This document shows, in pieces, positions 22,306 to 40,175 of a DNA stretch of 64,000 bases. A program made the translations under genes and the position numbers. A model generated the notes under the pieces. The model had not been told where the DNA came from and searched no databases. It saw only the letters and a list, made by a program, of their open reading frames with translations. Numbering within the stretch: the stretch's first letter is position 1; each line of letters starts with the position of its first letter. The stretch spans positions 1 to 64,000 of the forward strand of contig PKUH01000108.1 in the NCBI GenBank assembly GCA_002869615.1, written 5' to 3'. Origin of the DNA: Desulfuromonas sp. (GTDB taxonomy: Bacteria > Desulfobacterota > Desulfuromonadia > Desulfuromonadales > UBA2294).

Positions 22306-22593
22306 TCAGTAGTGAAAAATATCAGTAGACCGGGTGCATATTTCCGCTAACCCGGTCCGTATGATTTCAGATTCAATTTTTTCAAACAATGCATCGAATG
22401 ATTCATCATCGCTGCCGGTTATGACAAAACCGATCTCGGATCGCTGCCACGGGTCATGCAGGCCGGTTTCGGCACAGGAGACCGGGAAACGTTCCCGGCA
22501 GCGGCCGAGAATCTTGCGGACAACCGAGCGCTTCTCTTTTAAACTCTGCGGCGAGTAAAGCTGTAATTCAATACGCAGAACACCGACGATCAT
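22306..22593 (-). CDS. ylxP: DUF503 family protein YlxP
   Basis: 95 residues matching DUF503: MIVGVLRIELQLYSPQSLKEKR, VVRKILGRCRERFPVSCAETG, EIGFVITGSDDESFDALFEKIE. Ferredoxin-like fold, associated with ribosome maturation by its constant place between infB and rbfA. Gaps of 12-13 bases to both neighbours. Confidence 0.92.
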   Translation of the reverse strand: MIVGVLRIELQLYSPQSLKEKRSVVRKILGRCRERFPVSCAETGLHDPWQRSEIGFVITGSDDESFDALFEKIESEIIRTGLAEICTRSTDIFHY

Positions 22594-32224: not shown

Positions 32225-33112
32225 TCAACTTCGGGGATGATGAATCCCGTGAATCTTTTTCAGCCGTTCCCGGGTCACATGAGTATAGATCTGCGTCGTC
32301 GAGATATCGGCGTGCCCGAGCATGGTCTGCACCGACCGCAAATCGGCGCCGTTATCGAGCAGGTGCGTCGCGAACGAATGCCGCAGGGTGTGCGGTGTAA
32401 TGTTTTTGGCGATGCCGGCCTGGGCGGTGCGGCGTTTAATAATCTTCCAGAAGCCCTGACGTGTCAAGCCTTGTCCGGCCCGGTTCAGGAAAACATGCGG
32501 ACACGCCTTTTCTTTTTCAAGAAATGGTCGAGCTGACTCGATATAGAGCTGCAGGGCTTCAATCGCCACCTCACCGACCGGAACGATCCTCTGTTTGCTT
32601 CGTTTGCCGAAAGCGACGAGGTAACCGACATCAAGTTGCAGATCGGAAAGCTTAAGGCTGATCAATTCCGAAACACGCAAACCGGTGGCATAGAGGACTT
32701 CAAACATTGCCCGGTCCCGGTAGTCGAGGTTTTCCTCCCCCGAGGGCGCGGCCAGAAGGCGTTCAACTTCATTCGGTGAGAGCGTATGCGGCAATGACTT
32801 GATACTCTTTGGGGCTTCAACACGATCTGCCGGGTTGGTCGCGGCGATCTCCTCAACAAGAAGGAATTTATGAAACATCCTTAAAGAGACCAGCACCCGG
32901 GCACGACTTCGGGCCGAAAGCTTATTATTTTTCAAGTCGGCAAGAAAACGGAGAACAACCGTCGGGGTCACGGCATCCGGGCTGGAAAACCCTTCAGCTT
33001 GCAAGTAATCAAGGTAGCGGGTCAAATCCCGGCCGTAGGCGTCGAGCGTGTTGGCTGACAGGCCCCGTTCGACAACAAGATAGTTCAGGAAAAGGTCGAG
33101 GTATTGATCCAT
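32225..33112 (-). CDS. xerD: Tyrosine recombinase XerD
   Basis: 295 residues. SAM-like N-terminal core-binding domain (about 1-85) and catalytic domain with Arg in LYATGLRVSEL, Lys in the KRSKQR turn, HTLRHSFATHLL (His-x-x-Arg), LGHADISTTQIYTHV (His/Trp position and catalytic Tyr). With XerC it resolves chromosome dimers at dif. The length and the PKS...LPHTLS linker favour XerD over phage integrases. Genomic setting (glnD-xerD-apgM) is core rather than mobile. Confidence 0.93.
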   Translation of the reverse strand: MDQYLDLFLNYLVVERGLSANTLDAYGRDLTRYLDYLQAEGFSSPDAVTPTVVLRFLADLKNNKLSARSRARVLVSLRMFHKFLLVEEIAATNPADRVEAPKSIKSLPHTLSPNEVERLLAAPSGEENLDYRDRAMFEVLYATGLRVSELISLKLSDLQLDVGYLVAFGKRSKQRIVPVGEVAIEALQLYIESARPFLEKEKACPHVFLNRAGQGLTRQGFWKIIKRRTAQAGIAKNITPHTLRHSFATHLLDNGADLRSVQTMLGHADISTTQIYTHVTRERLKKIHGIHHPRS

Positions 33113-33126
33113 AAGAAGCTGAAAAA

Positions 33127-34905
33127 CTAATCTTTATCAAGTTGATCGAGTACTTCAAGAAGAGCGTTTCGGACTTCCTTGATCTTCTCTTCGTCAGTAA
33201 TTTTTTGCCCGAAAATATCCTGTACATAGAAGGTATCAGTGGCTTGATCGACTTTGGTCGAAATCTTGGAAACACCGATATAGAGGCCGAGATCGATCAG
33301 GGTTCGGGCAATATCGTATAGCAGGCCAACCCGGTCGGTCGCATAGATATCAAGAACCGAATACTGGTCCGAGACCTCATTGTCAATCTCGACCCGATTG
33401 GCAAAACGGGGCTTCGGCTTCTCGGGCAACAACCCCATACCGGAATCCCGCTTGGCCACCATTTCGTCAACCCTTTTGCGCCCTTCAAGTACCGCGTTCA
33501 GCTCATTTTCGACCTTTTGCCATTTTTTCGGATTATCGACAATCGATTCGGTTGAACTACGGACCTGAAGGATGTCCATCGCCTCGCCATTACTGCGGGT
33601 ATAAGCCTGAGCGCCGAGAATATTGATGCCGTTGGCAGCCATGACTCCGGTGATCATCGAAAAGAGGCCCGGAACGTCGACCGTTGAAATAAAGACCTGT
33701 GAATAATCACTGGCCGGATCATGTTCGACATACAGCACCAGGCTTTTGTCCCCCCGACTGAAGGCAAGCCGTACATGTTCGGTAATTTCGGGTGAGCGGT
33801 GCGACAGAAGATAACGATAACTCATCGTCTGCAGAACTTTTTTGACACGTTTTTCGCCAAATTCATCAGCCAGGTTAGCAACAACCTTACGCTTCCGGTT
33901 CTTCAGTCGGTCAGAACGGGCATCCAGGCGGAAGTTGCCGCGTTCAAGGACATCGTAAGCTTTCAGGTAGAGCTCCTTGAGAAGGAACCCTTTCCATTCA
34001 CTCCAGACATCCGGACCGACGGCCTTGATATCGGCGAAGGTCAGCAGATATAACATCTTCAGTGTCTCGGTCATACCCATCTTGGTAGCAAATTGATCAA
34101 TCAGCTTATCGTCATTGAGATCACGGCGCTGTGAGATATGGGCCATATCAAGGTGGTTTCTGACCAGAAACTCGAGCCGTTCCCTGTCCTCGCGCTTGAG
34201 GCCCAGACGTCGACTGATCCTCGGTATCAGGTCCGCACCTTTATTTGCGTGATCCTTCCCCTCTCCCTTTCCGATATCGTGCAACAGCACAGAAAGCTGA
34301 AGAAGCTCCCGTTTTTCGATATCATTAGCCAATCGGGTCAAGAGGGGTTTACGTTCTTCATAAACTCCGGACCAGAGTTTAGCTATTTCCTCAACCGCAA
34401 AAATCGAATGCATATCGACCGTGTAAATATGATAGGCGTCATGCTGCACCTTGCAGTAAATACGGCGGAACTCGGGCATGAAGGCATTGAGGAACTGAAG
34501 GTGATGCATATCGCGCAAGATCCGGGAGTCCGGACGCATTGTACGAAGAATTTCAAGAAAGCCATCGGCCATCATCTTGGAACGACGAACCTGGTTATTG
34601 ATCAGATACAGGTTATCCCGGATCAAACTTTTCAATCGGTAACTGAGCTCGACCTGATGTTGGTGCGCCAGGAGAAAAGCCCGCATCATCATCGCCGGCT
34701 CTTTCTCGATAATCTCGGGTTTGCTCAGTCGAAGCTCACCTTTTAACGTATAAAAGTAGTCATCGATCTGCCTCTTACCGAACATGCCGAGAAACTTCGG
34801 CTGCTTTTCATCCTGTACGGTCGCCCGACTGATCAGGGATGATGACAGGTGCTCTATCTGGGTTGCCTGAAAGTAGTAATCCTGCATGAACAGTTCAACT
34901 GCCAA
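33127..34905 (-). CDS. glnD: GlnD C-terminal part (HD and two ACT domains), split gene
   Basis: Continues the same reading frame as the 284-residue ORF upstream after an in-frame TAA at 34989-34987. It holds the end of the nucleotidyltransferase-associated helices (AVELFMQDYYFQATQ), the HD uridylyl-removing domain (YTVDMHSIFAVEEI, LSVLLHDIGKGEGKDHANKGA) and two C-terminal ACT domains (VDVPGLFSMITGVMAANGINI, ATDRVGLLYDIARTLIDLGL) that sense glutamine. The listed start is a TTG with no binding site; codons 34986-34906 also belong to the native frame. An expressed fragment would be hydrolase-only. Confidence 0.85.
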   Translation of the reverse strand: MAVELFMQDYYFQATQIEHLSSSLISRATVQDEKQPKFLGMFGKRQIDDYFYTLKGELRLSKPEIIEKEPAMMMRAFLLAHQHQVELSYRLKSLIRDNLYLINNQVRRSKMMADGFLEILRTMRPDSRILRDMHHLQFLNAFMPEFRRIYCKVQHDAYHIYTVDMHSIFAVEEIAKLWSGVYEERKPLLTRLANDIEKRELLQLSVLLHDIGKGEGKDHANKGADLIPRISRRLGLKREDRERLEFLVRNHLDMAHISQRRDLNDDKLIDQFATKMGMTETLKMLYLLTFADIKAVGPDVWSEWKGFLLKELYLKAYDVLERGNFRLDARSDRLKNRKRKVVANLADEFGEKRVKKVLQTMSYRYLLSHRSPEITEHVRLAFSRGDKSLVLYVEHDPASDYSQVFISTVDVPGLFSMITGVMAANGINILGAQAYTRSNGEAMDILQVRSSTESIVDNPKKWQKVENELNAVLEGRKRVDEMVAKRDSGMGLLPEKPKPRFANRVEIDNEVSDQYSVLDIYATDRVGLLYDIARTLIDLGLYIGVSKISTKVDQATDTFYVQDIFGQKITDEEKIKEVRNALLEVLDQLDKD

Positions 34906-34986
34906 CGCTTTTTTGGTGTCGACATAACCGAGAAAACGGGCAATCTTTTCCTGCTGATCAAAATTGATCTGTTCGTTTTTGCGCGG

Positions 34987-35841
34987 TTAAATAAAATGAA
35001 GTTCGTTGCGCACTTTCCAGATATGATCAAGGGCCGCGGTGAAAGCGGCCGCTTCCTGTTCGCTGACTACACCCTTTTTAACCAGATCGAGCAAACTCAT
35101 TGCCTTGAATTTAACCCGCATGATCCAGAGAGCAGAATGAAGATCGCGCAACCCGCCCTCGCCCTCCTTGATATTCGGTTCAAGCAAATAGACCGTCGAG
35201 CCGTATTTACTCCGCCGGCTCTCGATTTCCTCGAGCTTGTTCGTAATAAAAACCTGGGTGTTCCGGTTTAGGACTTCCTTTAGAACATCCTCCTGGTAAT
35301 CCTTGTAGAGGTCACGATTACCACAGAGGTAGCGTGAATCGAGGAGCGCTGTGCGGGCGGTAATGTCCTGATTTGCCATGTCGAGACAGTCGCGGCCGGA
35401 ACGAACCGAGTAACCGACATCCAGACCGAGATCCCAAAGCATGTAAAGTATCCGCTCAGTCGTCTTTTTCAGTGCTGCGACATCATTACTGCCGCAATAG
35501 AACATGATATCGATATCGGATCGTGGGTTGAGTTCGCCACGACCATAACCACCGATAGCAATCAGGGCACATTCATTGAGTAGCGCACCATCGGCATCAA
35601 CCGTCGATGCCTTGAACAGGGCATTGATCAGTGCGTCAACGAGGGTTGTATACAACTGGACGATTTCGGTCCCGGAGGCTCCGGCCCGATGACGGGCAAA
35701 TAGATCCTTACGGGTTTTCTCGAGAAGCTGGCGGGCACCATCACACAACTTGTCGCGACGTTCATCAAACGGGATATCAGACGAATCGATAAGTTCGTTC
35801 GGCAGGTAGGTGTCGAATGTCTGGGTCATTTCTCCGGTCAT
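34987..35841 (-). CDS. glnD: GlnD N-terminal part (PII uridylyltransferase domain), cut by stop codon
   Basis: 284 residues of the bifunctional PII uridylyltransferase/uridylyl-removing enzyme. The nucleotidyltransferase signature GGYGRGELNPRSDIDIMF lies at about 97-114. The frame ends at TAA (34989-34987) right after KVRNELHFI, where intact GlnD continues with a Gly/Arg/Lys-rich turn. The codons after the stop (PRKNEQINFDQQEKIARFLGY) read as the expected continuation. The combined frame, 33127-35841, is 905 codons, normal for GlnD. ATG 35841 overlaps the amiC stop (ATGA). If real, nitrogen signalling through PII would be altered. Confidence 0.88.
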   Translation of the reverse strand: MTGEMTQTFDTYLPNELIDSSDIPFDERRDKLCDGARQLLEKTRKDLFARHRAGASGTEIVQLYTTLVDALINALFKASTVDADGALLNECALIAIGGYGRGELNPRSDIDIMFYCGSNDVAALKKTTERILYMLWDLGLDVGYSVRSGRDCLDMANQDITARTALLDSRYLCGNRDLYKDYQEDVLKEVLNRNTQVFITNKLEEIESRRSKYGSTVYLLEPNIKEGEGGLRDLHSALWIMRVKFKAMSLLDLVKKGVVSEQEAAAFTAALDHIWKVRNELHFI

Positions 35842-37562
35842 CGCGCCGCCAGTAGCTTCAGCGCCGAGGCGTAGCTGTGTACACCTCTGACGATGGCCGC
35901 AGCCGCACGATCCTGATAAGTCCGGCTGACCAGAAGTTTTTCTTCGTAGTGGTTACTGATAAAAGCAGTTTCGACAAGAACCGATGGCATGGTTGCCCCG
36001 AGCAGAACATAAAACGGGCCCTGCCTGACACCGAGGTTTTTCACTTTGTAGTGACGTTTCAGGTTTTTGACCATTGCTTTTTGGATTTCGGCTGCCAAAC
36101 GACTTGATTCATTGATTTTCGAATTAGCCAGAAGATCCATGAGAATCAGTTCGAGATCACCGACCTGCTTCAGGGATGTGCCGTTCTCGCGGGCAACTAC
36201 CTCGACCGCCTTGTCGTTTTTGGAGAAATTGAGATAGTAGGTCTCAATGCCGCGGGCCCTTCGATTGCGGTTGGCATTGGCATGAACGGAAATGAAAAGA
36301 TCAGCGCCGACCTTATTGGCAATCGCCGTCCGTTCTTCGAGCTCGAGAAAGGTATCACCGGAGCGGGTCAGGATAACCTCGCATTTCAGTTCTTGCTCAA
36401 GCTTCCGGGCCAGTGCCTTGGCCATTGCCAGGGTAACGTCCTTCTCAAGGATACCGCTCGGGCCGACAGCGCCCGGGTCCTTGCCGCCATGCCCGGCATC
36501 GACCACGATCCGGCGCAGTCCCTGGCCGCTTCGTGACTCAGGAATGTGAACTCTGAGCGGTCGTTCCTTCGGTTCCGACTTGAGCAATCCGGCGATGTCA
36601 TCGTCGGCACCTCCAGGTATCGTAATCGAATCGTCTGCCCGGGCCACCTGAACAGTTCCGGCCTGTTCTTCCCCCTGGACATCAATCACGATACGGAACG
36701 GTTCAGCTAAGGGGAAGACGTTATAGTCACTGAAACTTTCAAGATCAAGAACGACCCGCGTCGTTTTACTGTCGGGTTGTCCGGCCCGGATTTTTGTCAA
36801 TAATCCGTCATTAACATCCTGGTTCCGGACAAGAGTTCCGACAGGCATGGTTTCGCTAAGATCGACATAGATTCTTGGCGGTGACTCGCCAGAGCTGTCG
36901 CCCTTAAGGAAATTAGATGTAAAATTGACCTTGTTCTGCATTTCAAGAACGACCCGGGTATAGCCCGGATTCGACCAGAACCGGATCGATTTGAGACTGT
37001 TTCCATCGATTGAAGGCGTAAGTGAAGACTGCGCCGATTTGGCCGGTTGACTCATTTTCGGTGCATATCGGGCCAATGACTTGACCTTGCGGCTTGCCCG
37101 CTTGCTCATATCACCATCGGGGTAGATGGTCAGGATCCGTTTATACCGCGAATAGGCCGGTGCCGGCTCTTCAAGGATGGTCTCGTGAATTTTTGCCGAA
37201 AAGTTCAACGAATCATCGGCGAGGCGGCTTTCGGGATAACTGTCGGGCAGGCGATCAAAAAGCCTTGCCGAATCCCGGGCGTCATCGAGCAACCCGGAGA
37301 TACCGTAAAGTTCAAAAGTCGTCTTGGCGGCCATGAAAAGAGCATCATCGGCGCGATTGCCATCTCCATGATTGCGATAAACATCTTCAAACTGCCGGAC
37401 CACCTTCAACCAGTTATGCCGGTAGAGGCGATCTTTCTGTGAATCCTGCAATCGGTAATAACTTTTGCGGGCTTTTTCATAAACGCGATCAGACGAATCT
37501 GCACTGCTGAGTGCAGGAACGATCAGGATCAGCATAAAAATAAGGCAACGTTTCAATATCAT
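35838..37562 (-). CDS. amiC: N-acetylmuramoyl-L-alanine amidase with AMIN domain
   Basis: 574 residues, periplasmic. Signal peptide (KRCLIFMLILIVPALSSA), TPR-like helical region (about 25-160), AMIN domain (SIRFWSNPGYTRVVLEMQ to FRIVIDVQGEE, about 190-300) that targets septal peptidoglycan, and Amidase_3 domain (IVVDAGHGGKDPGAVGPSG, HANANRNRRARGIETYYLN, VLVETAFISN) with zinc His and Glu residues. It splits daughter-cell murein. It lies 3 bases after mutS and overlaps glnD by 4. The symbol reflects AmiC-like architecture. Confidence 0.93.
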   Translation of the reverse strand: MILKRCLIFMLILIVPALSSADSSDRVYEKARKSYYRLQDSQKDRLYRHNWLKVVRQFEDVYRNHGDGNRADDALFMAAKTTFELYGISGLLDDARDSARLFDRLPDSYPESRLADDSLNFSAKIHETILEEPAPAYSRYKRILTIYPDGDMSKRASRKVKSLARYAPKMSQPAKSAQSSLTPSIDGNSLKSIRFWSNPGYTRVVLEMQNKVNFTSNFLKGDSSGESPPRIYVDLSETMPVGTLVRNQDVNDGLLTKIRAGQPDSKTTRVVLDLESFSDYNVFPLAEPFRIVIDVQGEEQAGTVQVARADDSITIPGGADDDIAGLLKSEPKERPLRVHIPESRSGQGLRRIVVDAGHGGKDPGAVGPSGILEKDVTLAMAKALARKLEQELKCEVILTRSGDTFLELEERTAIANKVGADLFISVHANANRNRRARGIETYYLNFSKNDKAVEVVARENGTSLKQVGDLELILMDLLANSKINESSRLAAEIQKAMVKNLKRHYKVKNLGVRQGPFYVLLGATMPSVLVETAFISNHYEEKLLVSRTYQDRAAAAIVRGVHSYASALKLLAAR

Positions 37563-37565
37563 TGG

Positions 37566-40175
37566 CTACAACAATCTCTTGAGTTCATCAATCAGATTCA
37601 ATGCTTCCAGCGGCGTCAACACAGAAATATCAGTTTGATCGAGTTTTTCCCGTACAGCATCGGTATCGGTACTGAACAGACCCATCTGTGCTTTCTGCGG
37701 CGGCGGCTCCCCTTGTCGGCGCGCCAGTCGCGGCTGACCTTCCGCCCCGTACTCTCCCGATTCAAGGTTCCGCAATATCTCCTTGGCACGGTCTATTACA
37801 TCCTGTGGCAGGCCGGCGAGCCGGGCAACCTGTATTCCGTAGGAGTGAGAAGCGCCGCCCTTGACAATACGACGCAGGAAAATGATCTGATCATTCCACT
37901 CCTTGACAGCTATATTGTAGTTCTGTACACGTTCCCGAGTCAAAGAAAGATCTGTCAACTCATGGTAGTGTGTCGCGAACAACGTTTTGGCTGCAACCTT
38001 TTTATTGTCATGCAAATATTCGGCCACAGACCAGGCGATACTGACCCCGTCAAAAGTTGAGGTGCCGCGACCTATTTCATCGAGAACAATCAGGCTGCGG
38101 GGTGTTGCATGATTCAGGATGTTGGCTGTCTCGGTCATCTCAACCATGAATGTCGATTGTCCGCGCGCCAGGTTGTCACTGGCGCCAACCCGGGTAAAAA
38201 TCCGGTCGACCACCCCGATGCGGGCTTCGGCGGCCGGCACCATCGAACCGATTTGCGCCATCAGGACAATCAACGCAACCTGCCTCATATATGTTGATTT
38301 ACCGGCCATGTTTGGTCCGGTAATAATCAGGATCTGGTTCTGCTCGAGATCCATCTCAACATCATTCGGAACGAACCGCTCGTCGAGGGTCATGGTTTCA
38401 ACGACCGGATGCCGTCCATCCCGAATCACCAGATCGTGACCATCGTCGATTTCAGGAGCGATATAGTTCTGCTCATGAGCGATATCAGCCAACTCCGCAA
38501 GGACATCGAGGGTGGCCAGGGCGATCGCCGTCTGCTGCAGCCGTTCCCCCTGTTGCGCTACCGTTTTGCGGACCTGTTGAAACAGCTCGTATTCGAGCTC
38601 AACCAGACGATCTTCGGCGCCGAGGATCTTGTCTTCGTACTCCTTGAGTTCCGGAGTGATGTAACGCTCGGCATTAGCCAGGGTTTGTTTACGAACGTAC
38701 TCTTCCGGCACCCGATCCAGATGGGTTTTGGTTACTTCGATATAGTAACCGAATACCTTGTTGTACCGGACCTTGAGCGACGAAATTCCGGTCTGCTTGC
38801 GCTGCTCAGCCTCAAGACGGGCAATCCAGCCCTTCCCTTCGCGACTGATTGTTCGCAATTCGTCGAGTTCTTCACTGTAGCCGTCACGGATGATGCCACC
38901 CTCACGCAGAACAAAAGGCGGATCATCAACCAGAGCTGCGGCGACAAGTTCGGTGATCTCCGGTATCGGATCTATGCGCGCACTCAAATCAACCGCGAGC
39001 GCACCCAGCAGTGCGCTCATCAGGTTCAGCAACTCGGGCAGGCGCTCCAATGAATCCCGCAGCGCCACCAGATCCTTGCCATTGGCACTTGCCATTGCAA
39101 TCTTGCCGTTCAGGCGTTCGAGGTCATAGACCCCATCGAGCAAAGATCGAAGGTCCTGGCGCAGCAGGGCCGATCCGGCGAGTTCAGCCACCGTCTCCTG
39201 ACGCTGCCTGATGCGTGTGGCATCAACCAGCGGGTGATTGATCCACTGCCGCAGCAGTCGGCCTCCCATGGCCGTTACCGTCCGATCGAGTACGCCGAGC
39301 AATGAACCTTTCCGTGAACGGTCGTACATTGTTCCGGTCAACTCAAGGTTGCGCCGGGTTGCATCATCCAGAACCATGTAATCGCTGACATGATAGGTTA
39401 CAAGGGTTTGCAGGTGCGGCACCGAGCCTTTGCGTGCTTCCTTGAGATAGTGGAGTGCAGCTCCGGCAGCCTGAGTTGCTGTTTTCATCCCCTGGCAGCC
39501 GAAAACTTCAAGCCCTGAGCAGTTATAGGTATCGAGCAACTGCTCGGTCGCATAATCGATATCGGCTGACCAGGCCGGAACTGTATTGACGACCTTCTGC
39601 CCGGTCAGATCACTTAATGGCACAAGCCATTCGCCGTCGGAAGAGTCATCGATGACAATAATTTCGGTCGGGTCGATCGACGCCAACTCACTACGGACGG
39701 TCTCTATTTCAGAAACCTGGGTAACCCTAAACTCACCAGTCGACACATCAAGTAAGGCAATCCCATAACTGTTCGAATCAGCAACCAGCGCCATCAGGAA
39801 ATTGTTCCGGTCAGGTTTCAGATTTTCACTGTCGACCACAAGACCGGGAGTAACGACCTGGACCACATCACGCTTGACCAGTCCCTTGACCGTTTTCGGA
39901 TCCTCAACCTGTTCGCAAATCGCTACTTTGTGGCCATGCTCAACCAGCTTCGCAATGTAGGGCTGACAGCTATGGAAAGGAATACCACAGAGAGGGATTT
40001 CCTCATCGGCTCCCTTGTTGCGCGCGGTCAGGGTGATATCGAGAATTCGCGAAGCGGTGACAGCATCTTCCATGAACATTTCATAGAAATCACCGAGGCG
40101 GAAGAACAGGATGGCATCAGGGTACCGGGATTTAATTTCCAGGTACTGACGCATCATCGGGGTTGTCTTGGACAT
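37566..40175 (-). CDS. mutS: DNA mismatch repair protein MutS
   Basis: 869 residues, full length. N-terminal mismatch-recognition domain with [15 protein letters not shown] (the Phe-x-Glu mismatch-reading motif), connector, core lever and clamp, then the ATPase: [15 protein letters not shown] (Walker A), [16 protein letters not shown] (Walker B and signature) and [12 protein letters not shown]. The C-terminal tail ends [17 protein letters not shown], the tetramerisation segment. First gene of the mutS-rlmD operon; a promoter is predicted about 85-115 bases upstream. Confidence 0.97.

Follow-up and report, generated by a model that had tools for sequence, protein, structure and literature searches.

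The glnD gene of this Desulfuromonas sp., which encodes the bifunctional PII uridylyltransferase/uridylyl-removing enzyme, is interrupted by an in-frame stop codon; our verdict is that this is not a new two-part enzyme and that the stop is an ordinary private nonsense codon, whether real or a consensus error. In the window (the whole stretch of 64,000 nucleotides that was analysed), the frame lies at 33127..35841 on the minus strand. Translation confirmed what the first-pass annotation had reported, namely a frame of 905 codons with exactly one stop in 904 codons, a TAA at codon 285 (34987..34989, minus strand), where most relatives have Ser. The TAA is directly preceded by RNELHFI, and PRKNEQINFDQQ continues the same frame after it. 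The uninterrupted frame expected of a GlnD is thus broken at this codon.

The N-terminal open part (34990..35841, minus strand; 284 aa) comprises the nucleotidyltransferase core (GGYGRGELNPRSDID) and the first part of PF08335. The downstream part (33127..34986, minus strand; 619 aa) comprises the remaining PF08335, the HD domain (LLHDIGKGEGKDH) and two ACT domains, and has no start of its own at the 5' end. Against the GlnD family model TIGR01693 the two parts scored 250.8 and 475.1 bits on neighbouring stretches of the model (4-237 and 240-849), and together they span the family model; the nucleotidyltransferase, the HD and both ACT domains share a single frame. All of the corresponding motifs are intact, at 97, 519, 718 and 836. 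A second glnD copy, which the first-pass annotation had advised looking for, was not found in the organism's own assembly (98% complete, Desulfuromonadales).

The stop had initially been placed between the nucleotidyltransferase and HD domains, which proved to be incorrect. It cuts the Pfam domain GlnD_UR_UTase (PF08335), leaving model positions 2-88 on one side and 91-140 of 141 on the other. In an AlphaFold2 model (stop read as Ser, alignment with 32 related sequences, mean pLDDT 84), residue 285 falls at the end of predicted helix 261-284, before predicted helices 294-303 and 314-341, and the helices of the HD domain begin only near 475, some 190 residues past the stop. The break therefore does not coincide with a clean domain boundary. 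Helix 314-341, which would be lost to the first fragment, carries the invariant residues V315, E316, M319, Q320 and Y323. A search of solved structures returned poly(A) polymerases only (query residues 368-609, E about 4e-7), with no GlnD template by sequence.

Close relatives carry an intact gene, and the stop is not shared. Both the genus mate (G001, the same locus as Desulfuromonas sp. BM302; 80% amino acid identity) and the family mate (G002) have an intact glnD, with TCG and TCA, respectively, at codon 285. A single change from TCA to TAA, as originally suggested, is plausible from the family mate's codon, but the genus mate's TCG would need two changes. A stop at column 285 occurs in none of about 90 related loci; the residue there is mostly Ser, and in the remaining loci Gly, Ala, Thr, Gln or Leu. 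More widely, glnD was matched in 103 of the 107 genomes of the order and the full-length frames are intact except in three, each with unshared breaks elsewhere: G060 has an in-frame stop around residue 87 (L162 on contig C244, the same contig as L085), G052 (L164; a two-contig assembly) is frameshifted near residue 798, and G103 (L163) changes frame twice, near residues 240 and 730. G060 is a Desulfuromonadales draft genome, and its stop precedes the nucleotidyltransferase motif. Stops flagged in six further genomes (G029, G048, G069, G088, G101 and G107) were normal gene ends, and the split genes of G087 and G105 are contig ends, that is, assembly breaks. Since the breaks are unshared and scattered, they have the pattern of private mutations or assembly errors, not of a conserved split. 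No match was found in phage records.

Gene order, mutS-amiC-glnD-xerD-apgM, is common to the window and the genus mate, and the four neighbours of glnD are intact. Among these, on the minus strand, are xerD downstream (32225..33112), an amiC-type N-acetylmuramoyl-L-alanine amidase gene with an AMIN domain upstream (35838..37562; a 4-base overlap with the glnD start) and mutS (37566..40175). Over the syntenic 36 kb, the other genes with orthologues are free of stops and frameshifts, so that the assembly appears clean at glnD. Near 22400, what looked like another disrupted gene turned out to be RbfA-like, and the stops there all precede its own start. Neither repeats nor a sigma-70-like promoter were found at or near the glnD break. 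The source contig is 134,860 bases long and belongs to a draft assembly of 121 contigs.

The age of the stop was assessed from lineage-specific protein changes in the window lineage and in G001, polarised by G002. Before the stop the counts were 12 vs 11, and after it 44 vs 29 (chi2 3.1, not significant); the comparison genes gave 44 vs 44 (mutS), 35 vs 34 (amiC) and 21 vs 20 (apgM). The slight excess after the stop may be read as a hint at most, the signal of relaxed selection being weak and non-significant. Conserved columns of glnD likewise had no significant excess of lineage-specific changes. Nonsynonymous divergence (pN) was low in both parts of glnD and resembled the value for mutS; saturation of the synonymous sites precludes a dN/dS estimate for the C-terminal part. 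Together with the intactness of the other syntenic genes, these results mark the stop as either very recent or technical.

Could a functional enzyme nevertheless be made from the interrupted gene? One way would be a two-piece GlnD, in which the first 284 residues associate with a re-initiated second polypeptide and both activities are kept. The motifs and low pN of both halves fit such an arrangement, although a new stop equally predicts that both halves are conserved. Past the stop, the first TTG (codon 313; 34903..34905, minus strand) lies in a predicted loop just ahead of helix 314-341, where a second polypeptide might begin; the stretch 34906-34989 runs from the codon-285 stop to this TTG, the next one in the list of open reading frames (34905). 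However, no Shine-Dalgarno-like sequence was found ahead of it or of the first ATG (codon 319; 34885-34887, minus strand), nor is there a conserved start for the second half, in agreement with the first-pass annotation, which had seen no credible start there. With the break inside PF08335 and absent at that place in every relative, the genus mate included, none of the marks of a functional split was found: a break at a domain boundary, a second part equipped with its own start and ribosome-binding site, or a split conserved in relatives. The idea that uridylyltransferase and uridylyl-removing activities are separated as a functional arrangement is accordingly not supported. We regard a two-piece GlnD as very improbable, and its more specific form, in which re-initiation would supply an HD-ACT-ACT fragment that works in trans with a uridylyltransferase fragment in a nitrogen-fixing Desulfuromonadales species, as more improbable still.

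Another way would be for the stop to be read through, by a suppressor tRNA or by programmed readthrough, so that some full-length GlnD would be made at a low level. The frame and motifs past the stop are intact, as this would require. The 41 tRNA matches in the organism's own genome have normal sense anticodons only, and none of the recovered genes reads UAA, UAG or UGA, in a set that is incomplete (tRNA-Lys and tRNA-Ile were not recovered), so that a suppressor could have been missed. The absence of these two tRNAs from the matches fits a draft with missing regions. Against readthrough, TAA closes 8 of the 30 frames checked in the window and is therefore an ordinary stop here, and position 285 is occupied in relatives by a variable small residue (Ser/Gly/Ala/Thr), without conserved recoding. 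These observations make readthrough highly doubtful.

The partners of GlnD are all present in the same genome. The first-pass annotation had pointed to PII conservation as informative, and both PII genes retain the T-loop tyrosine: that of GlnB, which adjoins the glutamine synthetase gene, and that of GlnK, which adjoins an ammonium-transporter-like gene. A divergent third PII-like protein (L152:2928-3296) lies where a large RND-type efflux gene ends and is devoid of the T-loop tyrosine motif of the GlnB/GlnK type. GlnE is intact, there is only one glutamine synthetase, of the adenylylation type, and nifH is present. When E. coli or Caulobacter loses GlnD, PII is no longer modified, glutamine synthetase stays adenylylated and the cells become glutamine auxotrophs; in Caulobacter, deletion of glnE relieves the glnD defect (PMC4848567). 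Under nitrogen-fixing conditions glnD mutants of Azoarcus become depleted (PMC9769520), and Sinorhizobium meliloti GlnD without its N-terminal domain is unable to modify PII (PMC3596328). Given this set of partners, a true glnD null should be costly here, as in the Caulobacter and E. coli mutants, which makes a consensus error or a minority variant more likely.

These results leave two readings of the stop itself. The one we tentatively favour, at close to an even chance, is that a glnD which is single-copy and normal in all other respects has very recently acquired a private nonsense change of one base. Should the cells carry this base, translation would stop at residue 284, and the fragment would keep the catalytic motif but lose the final two helices of its uridylyltransferase module, together with the HD (uridylyl-removing) and ACT (glutamine-sensing) domains. 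PII would then not be modified, and glutamine synthetase would tend to be held in its adenylylated state by GlnE; such a null allele would be expected to be tolerable only with usable glutamine or organic nitrogen, or with a suppressor. The clean surrounding sequence argues for a real base, and a clean substitution on a long contig without repeats is not the usual assembly failure. It is nonetheless a substantial possibility that the living population has an intact GlnD and that the TAA in the draft assembly has a technical origin, either as an error in base calling or consensus or as a variant of a minority strain. In keeping with this, the assembly is a draft of 121 contigs from which some tRNA genes were not recovered, no significant signature of relaxed selection was seen, the intact partners would make a null costly, the other breaks in the order are likewise unshared and in different places, and about 3.8% of random single-base changes in glnD produce a stop.

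If the nonsense change is real, the strain would be a naturally occurring glnD null whose genes for PII, GlnE, nitrogenase and the only glutamine synthetase are intact. Glutamine dependence or a suppressor would then be predicted, and the strain would be of use as a physiological case. An error, in turn, would serve as a caution that a lone stop in a draft genome should not be taken as lost nitrogen control. Neither outcome requires a new mechanism.

Literature searches for precedents of a domain-split or pseudogene GlnD yielded nothing directly usable. The shortened S. meliloti allele glnD-sm2 (PMC3596328) likewise has the uridylyltransferase domain parted from the rest; however, there the N-terminal domain was removed by laboratory construction, whereas the window glnD would lose its C-terminal two thirds. 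Compared with GlnD as defined by NCBIfam (TIGR01693, NF003467), the gene has the same domain order (NT - PF08335 - HD - ACT - ACT), motifs and length, and differs by one in-frame TAA. It also resembles nonsense-disrupted genes in general, either private nulls or draft consensus errors, with the same single stop, conserved remainder and lack of sharing with relatives, the difference being that the stop here strikes a central nitrogen regulator with all of its partners intact.
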